The notes under the pieces: generated by a model
The model's input: the letters and a program-made list of their open reading frames with translations, nothing else
What the model was told of the DNA's origin: nothing
Database searches by the model: none
Part shown: positions 42,054 to 60,895 of the stretch, in pieces
Numbering within the stretch: position 1 is the first letter of the stretch
How the letters are laid out: each line of letters starts with the position of its first letter
Translations under genes and position numbers: made by a program
Source: Desulfobacteraceae bacterium
Lineage (GTDB): Bacteria; Desulfobacterota; Desulfobacteria; Desulfobacterales; Desulfosalsimonadaceae
Direction of reading: 5' to 3'
Length of the DNA stretch: 64,000 nucleotides
Assembly (NCBI GenBank): GCA_011389935.1
Contig: JAABTJ010000013.1
Span: 1 to 64,000, forward strand

Positions 42054-42203
42054 TGGCACCGTAAAAAGTCCAATATCTGCGTTACGCGTGATTTCTCAGA
42101 ATTTTACGTACGGCTAAGTACGCTGCATTCTTCGAAATCACGCAAGCCTTGATCTTGAACTTTTTACGGAGCCATCTGAAAATCGACTTTTTTCGAGTCC
42201 ATC
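42052..42203 (+). mobile_element. MITE-like 152-bp palindromic element, copy B, with 6-bp target duplication
   Basis: The element runs from GATGGCACCGTAAAAAGTCC to GACTTTTTTCGAGTCCATC; the two ends are imperfect inverted repeats. A perfect 6-base direct repeat, AGTATT, flanks it (42046-42051 and 42204-42209). The inner stem GCGTGATTTC (42086-42095) pairs with GAAATCACGC (42134-42143) although its sequence differs from copies A and C, so pairing has been kept by compensating changes. It has no coding capacity and would need a transposase from elsewhere. Confidence 0.88.
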
Positions 42204-42311
42204 AGTATTGACAACCAAGCCGGGTAGAAAAAGCCAAAATGAATTGTGGGGGCAATATTTCACATGCCCCCACGCTTGATAGTGGTTGTAACGCGTTAGC
42301 CGGCCCGGCTG

Positions 42312-45599: not shown

Positions 45600-45685
45600 C
45601 AACTCTATTTTTGGTTGGATGAAAGTTTTCAGATATTGGATTTTTCAAAGGCCATTACTATTAGAGCATACAGGGGAGCGCATTG

Positions 45686-47275
45686 ATGAGCGAAAACAGG
45701 CAGCACTGGTTACGCGAGGAAGCCAGGCTCGATGAACGGGTCGCTGAAGCGACCATGCCCGGAGGGCAGAAAGCCATCGACCGGCTGGCAAAGCAGGGGA
45801 AAAAGCCGGTCCGGGAGTTGATTGAACGCCTTATTGATCCGGGCACGGAATTTTTTGAGCTTTCCCGTATCGCCGGTTTCGGGATGAATTATCCCGGCGT
45901 GGAGGATGTCCCCTGCGCCGGCGTCGTCACCGGCCTTGGCAAGATTTACGGCAACTGGACCATGATTATTGCAAACGATTCCCGCGTCAAGGCGGGCACC
46001 TATTTTCCCATAACCCTGAAAAAACATATACGGGCACAGGCCATTGCCGAGGAAAACGGCCTTAACTGCGTCTATATCGCCGATTCCGGCGGGGCTTTCC
46101 TGCCGATGCAGGTGGAAGTGTTTCCCGATGACGGACACTTTGGATCGATGTTTTACAACATGGCCCGCATGTCCGCCAAGGGGTTGAAACAGGTCACCAT
46201 GAGCACCGGCGGCAATACCGCAGGGGGTGCGTATATCGTGTTCATGGCCTGCGAGTCGGTCATGATCGATAAAATGTCCTACTCGTTTCTTGGCGGCCCC
46301 CCCCTGGTAAAAATGGCCACCGGCGAGGAAATTTCCGCGGAAGATCTGGGCGGGGCAAGGGTGCACACCCATGTTTCCGGCGGAGCCGACCATTTCTGCA
46401 AAGACCAGGACCAGGCCATCGACCGGGTCAAAGAGATATTGTCCCTGGCCCCATTGCAGAATATTCACTTGCACCGGTATGAAGAGCGCCCCCCGGCACA
46501 TCCTGTTGAACGGTTGTACGACATCCTTCCGACGACCGGTTCCCAGGCCATCGACGCCCATGCCATTATAGAGGCGATCGCTGATGACAGCGTTTTTTCC
46601 GAATACAAGAAACATTATGCGCCCGGGCGAGGCGATAATCTGGTTACCGGCAGAATCCGCCTGAAAGGGTATCCTGCGGGAATCATTGCCTCCAACAAGA
46701 TCGGTGTGATCTTCGAAGAAGCCGCGCGCAAGGCAGCGGAATGGATCGTTCGCTGCAGCCATGAAAAAATCCCCATTATATTTCTCCAGGGGTCGCCCGG
46801 ATACATGGTCGGCTCCGACGCGGAGCACAACGGCATCGGCAAATACGGTGCGGACATGGTCCGTGCGGTTTCCTGCGCACAGGTACCCCGAATCCAGCTC
46901 GTTATCGGGCAGGACAACGGTGCTGCCAACTACGGCATGTGTGGCAGGGCGTACAGGCCGAAGTTTCTGTTTCACACCATGCGGAGCCGGACCTCGGTCA
47001 TGAGCGGCCGGAGCGCCGGGGGCGTACTGCTCTCCATCGAGGATCGGAAGCGGGAAGCTTCGGGCGAGCCCATGACCGATGAGGAGCGAAGCCGCTTTTA
47101 CGAAAAAATGGTGGAAAAATACGACGGCGAAGCGCATCCGTTCTACTGCGGCGCCAGGCTGCTGAGCGATCGGGTGCTGAAATTTTCAGAGATTCGCGAT
47201 TGGCTGGCAATGGCACTGGAAGTAAGCCATATCCGGCCGGTCGGGGATCCGTCGTTTGGTAATTTCAGATTTTAA
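45686..47275 (+). CDS. acyl-CoA carboxylase carboxyltransferase (methylcrotonyl-CoA carboxylase beta-like)
   Basis: A 529-residue carboxyltransferase with two crotonase-like halves. Segments include DSGGAFLPMQVEVFPD (about 135-150), GNTAGGAYIVFMACES, GGPPLVKMATGEE and, in the second half, SPGYMVGSDAEHNGI and GQDNGAANYGMCGRA. In methylcrotonyl-CoA carboxylase this subunit moves the carboxyl group from biotin to the acyl-CoA. The biotin carboxylase/carrier subunit is not next to it and is not in the window. ATG at 45686 follows CAGGGGAG. The closest alternative is a glutaconyl-CoA decarboxylase-type subunit. Confidence 0.85.
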   Translation: MSENRQHWLREEARLDERVAEATMPGGQKAIDRLAKQGKKPVRELIERLIDPGTEFFELSRIAGFGMNYPGVEDVPCAGVVTGLGKIYGNWTMIIANDSRVKAGTYFPITLKKHIRAQAIAEENGLNCVYIADSGGAFLPMQVEVFPDDGHFGSMFYNMARMSAKGLKQVTMSTGGNTAGGAYIVFMACESVMIDKMSYSFLGGPPLVKMATGEEISAEDLGGARVHTHVSGGADHFCKDQDQAIDRVKEILSLAPLQNIHLHRYEERPPAHPVERLYDILPTTGSQAIDAHAIIEAIADDSVFSEYKKHYAPGRGDNLVTGRIRLKGYPAGIIASNKIGVIFEEAARKAAEWIVRCSHEKIPIIFLQGSPGYMVGSDAEHNGIGKYGADMVRAVSCAQVPRIQLVIGQDNGAANYGMCGRAYRPKFLFHTMRSRTSVMSGRSAGGVLLSIEDRKREASGEPMTDEERSRFYEKMVEKYDGEAHPFYCGARLLSDRVLKFSEIRDWLAMALEVSHIRPVGDPSFGNFRF

Positions 47276-47304
47276 AGATAAAAGGGAAAAGATTGAATTT
47301 CACG

Positions 47305-47494
47305 GATGGCTGTGGATGCTCCCTTTGGCAACTGTGAGGGCTTGGTGATATCTCTATGGCTTGTTTCGCAACATCCTGGAAACTCGCCCCGCCGATGGCG
47401 GGACTCAGACAATCCAGGAGGTTTTGCTGCACTTCGCCAAGAGCTATCAACCAAGCCTTCCCAATGTTGCCTTCCGGCAGCATCTATAGCCATC
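47305..47494 (-). repeat. structured palindromic element, copy 1
   Basis: About 190 bases that fold end to end. On the minus strand the outer arm GATGGCTATAGATGCT pairs with AGCATCCACAGCCATC; GCAAC (47466-47470 on plus) pairs with GTTGC (47328-47332); GGCTTGGT pairs with ACCAAGCC, extended by GATA/TATC; TCCTGGA pairs with TCCAGGA (47374-47380 and 47413-47419); and the tip is CCCGCC-N3-GGCGGG (47388-47402). AGCTCTTGGCGAAG and GCCATAGAGAT are shared with copy 2. It has no gene and is not a tRNA. It may be a non-coding RNA or mobile palindrome. Confidence 0.75.
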
Positions 47495-47604
47495 AATCAA
47501 ATTTTTAATTACAGAATAACCGTTTAAAATGGCTTAGCGGAAAAATCATACATAAGGGAAACTGCCTTTGGTTGTGAAGTTATCAAATGGTAAAATTTCA
47601 TAAA

Positions 47605-47786
47605 GACGGCGGCGGTATTGCCCGGAGCAACATTGGGAGGGCCTGGCGGCAGCTCTTGGCGAAGATAAGCCAGTCGTCCTGAATTGTTTGCGCCCCGATA
47701 GGGGCGAGTTTTCAGGACGCGGCGTATCGAGCCATAGAGATGCCCCATGGGCCTCACAGTTGCTACGGGCAATACCGACAGCCGGC
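47605..47786 (+). repeat. structured palindromic element, copy 2 (inverted relative to copy 1)
   Basis: About 182 bases with the same fold as copy 1 but different bases in the stems. CGGTATTGCCCG pairs with CGGGCAATACCG; GCAAC (47627-47631) pairs with GTTGC (47759-47763); GGCCTGGCGGCA pairs with TGCCCCATGGGCC with small bulges; GTCCTGAA (47676-47683) pairs with TTCAGGAC (47711-47718); the tip is CGCCCC-GATA-GGGGCG (47691-47706). Base-pair swaps relative to copy 1 occur in the outer, middle and tip helices. Confidence 0.75.
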
Positions 47787-47884
47787 GTTTGAAATTGTAA
47801 CCTTTTTTTCTTCTTCGAAGAAATTTGATGCGCTCGTAATTATTTACAGCATATAATAACCATTTACCGTTTCAGGAGGAATGA

Positions 47885-48904
47885 ATGGGCAAGCTGAATT
47901 TTCCAAAGAAGGTCGTGATCGGCGATATTACTGTCAGGGACGGGTTCCAGCACGAGGAGATCTTTGTGCCGACCCGCGCCAAGCTCTGGGTGCTCGAAGA
48001 GTTGATCTTATCCGGCATCCGGCGGCTGGAGGTGACCAATTTCGGAAATCCCAAGCGGATGGTGCAGTTTGAAGACGCCGATGAACTGTACAAGATGCTT
48101 TTCAAGAGCAAACGCGTGGCTCACCTGCTTGACGAGGTGGAAACCACATCCATCACCATTCGCGAGCAGGCGGTCGACCGGGCCATCGAGGCCAGGAAGA
48201 ACGGCCATGGCCCGGATCGGATCCTGTTTATGGTGTCGACTTCCGAATCGCACCACAAGACGAATTCCGGCACATCCTTGGAAGAATACTGGAAAATGTG
48301 TGAAAAATACATTCCCAGGGCTCACGACGCCGGAATTAAGGTCTGCGGCACCGTGAGTACGATATGGGGCTGCCCCATTGAAGGCCCGACGGACATGCGC
48401 AAGGCCGTGGAATTCACCCGGCGCTGGCTGGACATCGGCGCAGACGACATCGAGCATGCCGACCATGACGGATCCGCCCCCCCCAACCGGGTATATGATT
48501 ATTTCTCCATGATTCTGGACGATATCCCGGACACATCCAAGCACATCGCCCATTTCCACGTGACCCGCGGATGGGGTCTTGCCAATGTACTGGCGGCGCT
48601 GCACGCCGGGATCACCCATTATGAATCCACGCTTGGCGGGACCGGGGGGCAGCCCGCGAATTTCGTGGACCGGGTGCCCACCGGCGGGACCGGGGAGTAC
48701 TACTACAAAGATCCTTCGATTACCGGCCTGGTATCGACCGAGGACATGGTCGTAATGATGGACGAGATGGGGATCGATACGGGCCTGGATGTCGACAGGC
48801 TCCTTGCCGCCGGTGGCATGGTGGAAAAAATTTTAGGCCGCCGGCTGCGTTCGGAAACCGTCCACTCCGGCCGGATTCCCAAGGAGTTGACCGGAAGGAA
48901 GTAA
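47885..48904 (+). CDS. HMG-CoA-lyase-like (DRE-TIM) protein
   Basis: A 339-residue protein of the HMGL-like/DRE-TIM metallolyase family. The N-terminal motif DITVRDGFQHE supplies the catalytic Arg and metal-binding Asp; HFHVTRG supplies the two metal-binding His; ESTLGGTGGQPAN is the active-site loop. In authentic HMG-CoA lyase that loop contains a catalytic Cys in GGCPYA; here it reads GGQPAN, so the Cys is missing, and the residue after HFH differs as well. Context (carboxyltransferase before, acetoacetyl-CoA synthetase 13 bases after) supports HMG-CoA cleavage, but a related aldolase or lyase is possible. AGGAGG precedes the start. Confidence 0.8.
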   Translation: MGKLNFPKKVVIGDITVRDGFQHEEIFVPTRAKLWVLEELILSGIRRLEVTNFGNPKRMVQFEDADELYKMLFKSKRVAHLLDEVETTSITIREQAVDRAIEARKNGHGPDRILFMVSTSESHHKTNSGTSLEEYWKMCEKYIPRAHDAGIKVCGTVSTIWGCPIEGPTDMRKAVEFTRRWLDIGADDIEHADHDGSAPPNRVYDYFSMILDDIPDTSKHIAHFHVTRGWGLANVLAALHAGITHYESTLGGTGGQPANFVDRVPTGGTGEYYYKDPSITGLVSTEDMVVMMDEMGIDTGLDVDRLLAAGGMVEKILGRRLRSETVHSGRIPKELTGRK

Positions 48905-60659: not shown

Positions 60660-60811
60660 GACGGCTTCGTAAAAAGCCCAATATCTGCGTTGCGCACAAT
60701 CTTTGAAGAATCTTACGTACGCCTAAGTACGCTCAATTCTTCAAAAATTGTACGCGCCTTGATCTTGAACTTTTACCTTTGCCGTCCAAAATCGGCTTTT
60801 GCGAGCTCATC
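60660..60811 (+). mobile_element. MITE-like 152-bp palindromic element, copy C, with 6-bp target duplication
   Basis: It starts GACGGCTTCGTAAAAAGCCC, ends GCTTTTGCGAGCTCATC, and is exactly the length of copy B. A perfect 6-base direct repeat ATGCTT flanks it (60654-60659 and 60812-60817). The inner stem 60692-60711 pairs with 60736-60755, and the loop contains ACGTACGCCTAAGTAC, close to copies A and B. No coding capacity. Confidence 0.88.
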
Positions 60812-60895
60812 ATGCTTCGTTTCCGGTCATTAGACGCCGCAGATATGCGCTTCCGACCATCCGGCAGCCTCTACACCGCTGCACGGCGATTCGTA

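Follow-up and report, generated by a model that had tools for sequence, protein, structure and literature searches.

An inverted pair of imperfect hairpins, lying between two genes in the genome of a relative of sulfate reducers, is probably a single copy of a MITE-like mobile element, palindromic and non-autonomous, whose core is selected as a folded single strand. The copies are intergenic, multicopy and bounded by TIRs, with TSDs in two other subfamilies, and these properties identify them as MITE-like mobile repeats. Their stems change in a mostly compensated or wobble-tolerant manner and their loops stay fixed, which points to selection on the core as a folded strand. Among the observations against this reading are that no significant TSD was found in the genus itself, that no transposase lies near the copies and that other subfamilies show little or no wobble asymmetry. 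Taken as a family, the elements are best read as a superfamily of MITE-like repeats, new and widespread, whose structural core is conserved; the kind is familiar and the variant new.

An inverted hairpin pair between two genes

The pair was analyzed within a window of 64,000 nucleotides (the whole stretch of DNA under study). Its features are as follows.

45683-47275, plus strand: upstream gene, acyl-CoA carboxyltransferase (Carboxyl_trans, Pfam PF01039, E 3.1e-111)
47287-47516, minus strand: copy A of the palindromic element (R1 covariance model 153.6 bits, E 1.9e-35; fold z -9.16)
47315-47484: core hairpin of copy A (5' inner end of the copy near 47516, 3' outer end near 47287)
47350-47360, minus strand: conserved junction word GCCATAGAGAT, copy A
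47432-47443, minus strand: conserved junction word CTCTTGGCGAAG, copy A
47517-47580, no strand: spacer separating the two inner (head) ends, without promoter consensus
47581-47806, plus strand: copy B of the palindromic element (R1 156.7 bits, E 3.3e-36; fold z -10.51)
47614-47776: core hairpin of copy B
47653-47664, plus strand: conserved junction word CTCTTGGCGAAG, copy B
47731-47741, plus strand: conserved junction word GCCATAGAGAT, copy B
47885-48904, plus strand: downstream gene, HMG-CoA-lyase-like (Pfam PF00682, E 1.7e-29)

Both copies belong to the training set of R1, a covariance model built from 30 cores; the unit boundaries are approximate and come from family conservation and alignment. 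A first-pass annotation made from the letters alone had described two copies of 180-190 bases in opposite orientation that fold alike. Orientation and common fold are confirmed, while the full units turn out to be longer, at about 220 nt (about 47287-47516 and 47581-47806). The inverted arms of the pair run from 47308-47390 to 47701-47783 (73% complementary), with a second set at 47390-47445 and 47651-47706. Minimum free energy was -104.5 kcal/mol for copy A on the minus strand (shuffle mean -63.3, z -9.16) and -123.6 kcal/mol for copy B on the plus strand (shuffle mean -73.8, z -10.51), and for both copies 0 of 200 dinucleotide shuffles folded as well as the real sequence.

Full units measure 204-232 nt, have no coding capacity and form one long imperfect hairpin each, in which the TIR is followed by a GC-rich arm that varies and a core whose internal loops are fixed. 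Family conservation places a sequence like TATAAAATGRYCAATTTC at the inner end and one like GAAATTGAACCTTWT at the outer end, the inner end of copy A having diverged. The junction segments that had been singled out as nearly unchanged are indeed near-constant in the family, and CTCTTGGCGAAG and GCCATAGAGAT occur exactly twice each within the window, always inside copies A and B. The compensatory base swaps named at the same time are real in the window pair and hold in the 30 genomic copies. The swap in the tip stem is likewise real, but many related copies lack the GC tip hairpin (GAGTCCCGCCATCGGCGGGGCGAGT).

An empty site is available for comparison: in the relative G002, the carboxyltransferase gene is followed directly by the HMG-CoA-lyase-like gene, without the element, and the aligned flanks lie 17 bp apart. 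The window also holds three copies of a second multicopy repeat of about 140 bp (CGTAAAAAGTCCAATATCTGCGTTGCGCACAATTTTTGAAGAAT...; 1-139, 42065-42204 and 60673-60813). This repeat is common in the window's own genome, has further copies in many other fetched loci of the genus and is nested in some hairpin pairs, in the spacers at G000 contigs C35 and C44.

Copy number, pairing and ends

Searching the window's own genome for the word CTCTTGGCGAAG returned 35 copies. The covariance-model search of related genomes that the first-pass annotation had proposed was productive: R1 found 38 distinct sites in the same genome from 58 matches, the excess arising from several palindromes that are matched on both strands. 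Five genomes of the same genus gave 40, 31, 47, 24 and 7 matches, and R1 matched 18 of 60 genomes in all (own genome included), reaching other genera of the family and order, for example in Desulfococcus multivorans DSM 2059 (G045), where the model matched 43 copies. R2, a model of the wider core, matched 64 of 395 genomes of the phylum, representing 41 of 246 genera. A pattern of the inner core was found in at least 117 stretches of the GTDB collection. MAGs labelled Deltaproteobacteria, Desulfobacterales, Syntrophales/Smithella or Pseudomonadota account for nearly all of them; the remaining matches are two Thermodesulfovibrionales contigs and one Baia match, probably chance. The core in two Thermodesulfovibrionales MAG contigs (L221 and L303) lies outside the window's phylum, through either horizontal transfer or misbinning, and in L303 it sits near 5S rRNA and tRNA genes. 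The exact pattern is absent from IMG/VR, which gives no sign of viral carriage. Hairpin copies lie near the ends of G000 contigs C2, C13, C21, C24, C39, C43 and C44, and in C9 a matching outer end does so, suggesting that the repeats break assembly.

Elements are concentrated between genes: with ORFs defined simply by length, 87 of 100 placed elements were intergenic, compared with 13.5% of random points. Neighbouring copies within 2 kb at 40 fetched loci form 35 pairs, of which 33 have the minus/plus arrangement; the other two are a plus/minus pair spaced by 1.8 kb and a direct pair. The outward ends of the minus/plus pairs are GAAATTGAACC ends. In the genus, the cores of close pairs are separated by 58-611 nt, and those of one looser minus/plus neighbour by 1325 nt. 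Copies of subtypes I and II are found together repeatedly, at C2, C14, C21, C24 and C32, and their similarity extends into the spacer, from which we infer that the pair itself is the spreading unit; the other spacers are mostly unlike each other.

The ends differ between subfamilies. Elements of the window's genus have TIR ends of the TCAATTTC type, and no significant TSD was found there (best z 2.7-3.1 among some 150 combinations of offset and length). In D. multivorans the TIR is CTCAACTTTCGACTTTCAT, flanked by 7-bp direct repeats (TSD) that match at 70.5% of positions compared with 41.3% for re-paired flanks (z 6.8). A further subfamily, GGCTGTTGCCC, has GGCTGTTGCCCAAA ends and a 4-bp TSD (78% versus 48% expected, z 9.7). 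These differing ends and duplication lengths suggest that different transposases carry the same core. Some GGCTGTTGCCC-subfamily insertions (L205, L297 and L286) show longer flanking direct repeats (11-13 bp) or interrupt a perfect palindrome at its middle; a TGTCA-like symmetry shared by many flanks hints at a target preference. A cluster at 887100-891000 of D. multivorans (L351), perhaps a tandem array, comprises four partial matches to the core together with several TIR sites within about 3.5 kb.

No transposase recurred beside the copies, neighbourhood clustering having returned only common housekeeping families and read-throughs of the hairpin. Nor was a parent IS recognised in the own genome, where the closest matches to the TIR mostly coincide with copies of the core, or in a non-exhaustive search of other genomes.

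Covariation, fixed loops and strand asymmetry

In the genus alignment, built from 30 genomic copies, standard pairs make up 95.7% of cells compared with 82.8% in shuffles that do not account for the relatedness of the copies, and 30 of 49 pairs have changed on both sides. On the same controls the covariation score is 0.415 versus 0.168 when shuffled; with slid partners it reaches at most 0.104, a slide of one column being enough to remove the signal. The phylum-wide alignment A3 (40 sequences) behaves similarly, with 95.4% paired cells versus 76.0% and a covariation score of 0.589 versus 0.221, again relative to shuffles that ignore kinship, and all 9 of 9 pairs of the inner stem covary. The first-pass annotation had named a lack of covariation beyond phylogeny, or a match to a known IS end or a protein gene, as grounds for giving up its proposal; covariation is present relative to shuffles that ignore kinship, and neither a known IS end nor a protein gene was recognised in the element.

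The internal loops, by comparison, hardly change. The words GGCGAAG, TGTTTGAGC, GCGAGTTT and AGCCnTAG are near invariant across the phylum and across different TIR types. In A3, TGGCGAAG, TGTTTGAGC, GCGAGTTT and AGCCnTAG are nearly constant, a constancy that comes in part from choosing the sequences by pattern. Loci L066-L076, which R1 found without the pattern, mostly carry the same conserved words.

On the strand carrying CTCTTGGCGAAG, and with pairs defined strand-neutrally, G-T(U) cells outnumber A-C cells 174 to 20 in the genus. Counted by pairs, the asymmetry is 37 versus 13 (p 9e-4), and it is seen in single genomes (G000 alone, p 0.011; G001 alone, p 0.003); since the copies are related, none of these counts represents independent events. 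Consensus folding energy is -70.3 on the CTCTTGGCGAAG strand versus -40.6 on the other, and the background substitution bias in unpaired columns is only about 1.5-fold, in the same direction. This large excess of G-T over A-C indicates that the single-stranded form of the CTCTTGGCGAAG strand seems to be selected, so that selection seems to act on one single strand, RNA or ssDNA, in the window's genus at least. Other subfamilies show the same lean weakly (G-T to A-C cells 36:21, 11:4, 6:1 and 10:5; not significant by pairs).

These results are consistent with the following scheme. In the genus, two head-to-head units would move as one into the gaps between genes, and their ends would presumably be acted on by a transposase provided in trans. 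The core, oriented 5'-CTCTTGGCGAAG...GCCnTAGAG-3', would be selected as a folded single strand, which may be RNA transcribed through the core or ssDNA exposed in replication or transposition.

Alternative explanations and known systems

Covarying stems and fixed internal loops are what the element shares with the structured RNA families of Rfam 15, none of which it matches. The first-pass annotation could name no known RNA family with these motifs, and none reaches its gathering score on the element in the window or in the relatives scanned; the best sub-threshold matches are at chance level. Above the gathering score, the scanned loci contain only 5S rRNA and tRNA, nearby and off the element. 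The core may be an undescribed structured RNA (or an obligatory ssDNA structure) found across Desulfobacterota-type genomes and riding several transposon end types, with the fold conserved and not the mobility signals; we put this forward tentatively.

It is somewhat doubtful that the elements are purely selfish palindromic DNA, in which the hairpin would serve only TIR-mediated transposition and stem compensation would come from template-switch correction of palindromes during replication. Full-length palindromes with TIRs and TSDs in relatives agree with this idea, as does the lack of strand bias relative to genes. So do the D. multivorans TIR sites: with 17 bases and two mismatches allowed, the TIR matches 376 times (183 + 193) compared with 2 for the control, and many of the sampled sites are units of 55-149 bp that have lost most or all of the core and kept TSD-like flanks. 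Such deletion forms may be in-place palindrome deletions or mobile derivatives. Template switching can produce compensation in palindromes, but it should also erase mismatched, asymmetric loops, and GGCGAAG, AGCCnTAG, TGTTTGAGC and GCGAGTTT have stayed near invariant across the phylum and TIR types; the wobble asymmetry in the genus likewise speaks against it.

A stand-alone family of regulatory or small RNA genes, copied by transposition and with transcription starting at the pair's inner ends and running outward, is unlikely. The strand-specific fold is conserved as it would be in such a family, and the 5' ends of both units, which face the spacer, open with a sequence similar to TATAAAATG that looks like a -10 box. 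However, the column profile upstream of the units contains no -35 conservation, no promoter or terminator match was found in the window, and elements in tandem gaps are 22 sense and 33 antisense, so that neither orientation to the genes is clearly preferred. Such features would be expected of a dedicated RNA gene, and the copies show none of them clearly. The first-pass annotation had left the choice between a new RNA and a palindromic mobile element. Its mobile half is upheld by multiple intergenic copies, TIRs, TSDs in related subfamilies, the empty site and pairing; its RNA half survives only as a structured single strand under selection (covariation in genus and phylum, fixed junctions, wobble asymmetry in the genus), and the missing promoter, terminator and strand preference tell against the rest.

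REP/REPIN sequences mobilised by RAYT are palindromes of 20-40 nt with a GTAG or CGTC tag (PMC3733652), and the element resembles them in being palindromic, intergenic and paired in inverted orientation. Mobilisation of one-strand hairpins by a Y1 (HUH) transposase, with the inverted pair as the unit and no TSD, would also fit the fixed pairing, the strand-specific structure and the lack of a significant TSD in the genus. We nevertheless consider it improbable. The units, at about 220 nt, are several times longer than 20-40 nt, no constant GTAG/CGTC tag appears in the alignment, related subfamilies have TSDs and no Y1 transposase is linked. Y1_Tnp was mapped in 60 genomes and the surroundings of its matches were examined in nine. 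It was not found in three same-genus genomes that carry 24-40 copies (82-91% complete), and no examined Y1 locus has the element nearby. The Y1 transposase genes of G000 and G003 (L361, L364 and L185) are instead bounded by or adjoin their own 28-33 nt inverted repeats (GGGGGACGCCC..., GGGGTCAGGC...), an element family apart from the hairpin core.

Integron attC sites are imperfect single-strand hairpins with a variable tip and sequence-variable stems. That attC-like recombination sites bound mobile cargo here is highly improbable: the imperfect hairpin with its variable tip and stems is reminiscent of attC and a complete ORF for a GNAT acetyltransferase (Pfam Acetyltransf_7, E 2.4e-12) lies inside one pair (G000:C2:5437-6363, L125), but the element is larger and has other motifs, 33 of 35 pairs are inverted where attC sites lie in direct orientation between cassettes, no integron-type core site was seen by eye, and most minus/plus neighbours enclose a few hundred bases of spacer, sometimes with another repeat. 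The GNAT gene is possibly an accidental gene cassette. The C32 spacer holds a small ORF without assignment; cargo capture was set aside, these two being exceptions with no general cargo found.

The element agrees with the known bacterial MITEs (e.g., NEMIS/Correia, RUP and Nezha) in size (70-300 bp; 204-232 nt here), lack of coding capacity, TIRs, copy number (38 copies in the own genome) and intergenic placement, and, in two subfamilies, in TSDs. It differs from them in being a single long hairpin with a loop-and-stem core kept across the phylum and across TIR types, in the inverted pairs without detectable TSD of the window's genus and in that no parent IS was found. Publications on these repeats were not found in the open-licence literature, where absence is weak evidence; passages found in the D. 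multivorans genome paper mention only CRISPR repeats and 45 mobile-element genes (PMC5109826).

MITEs are usually seen as ends without content. For the present family it is the content, a hairpin core with fixed loops, that recurs in 41 sampled genera, and the ends and target duplications vary by subfamily. Should the core prove to function as an RNA or ssDNA signal, it would be an unrecognised and abundant element of environmentally important sulfate reducers and syntrophs, and its occurrence in the cultivated Desulfococcus multivorans makes it open to testing there.
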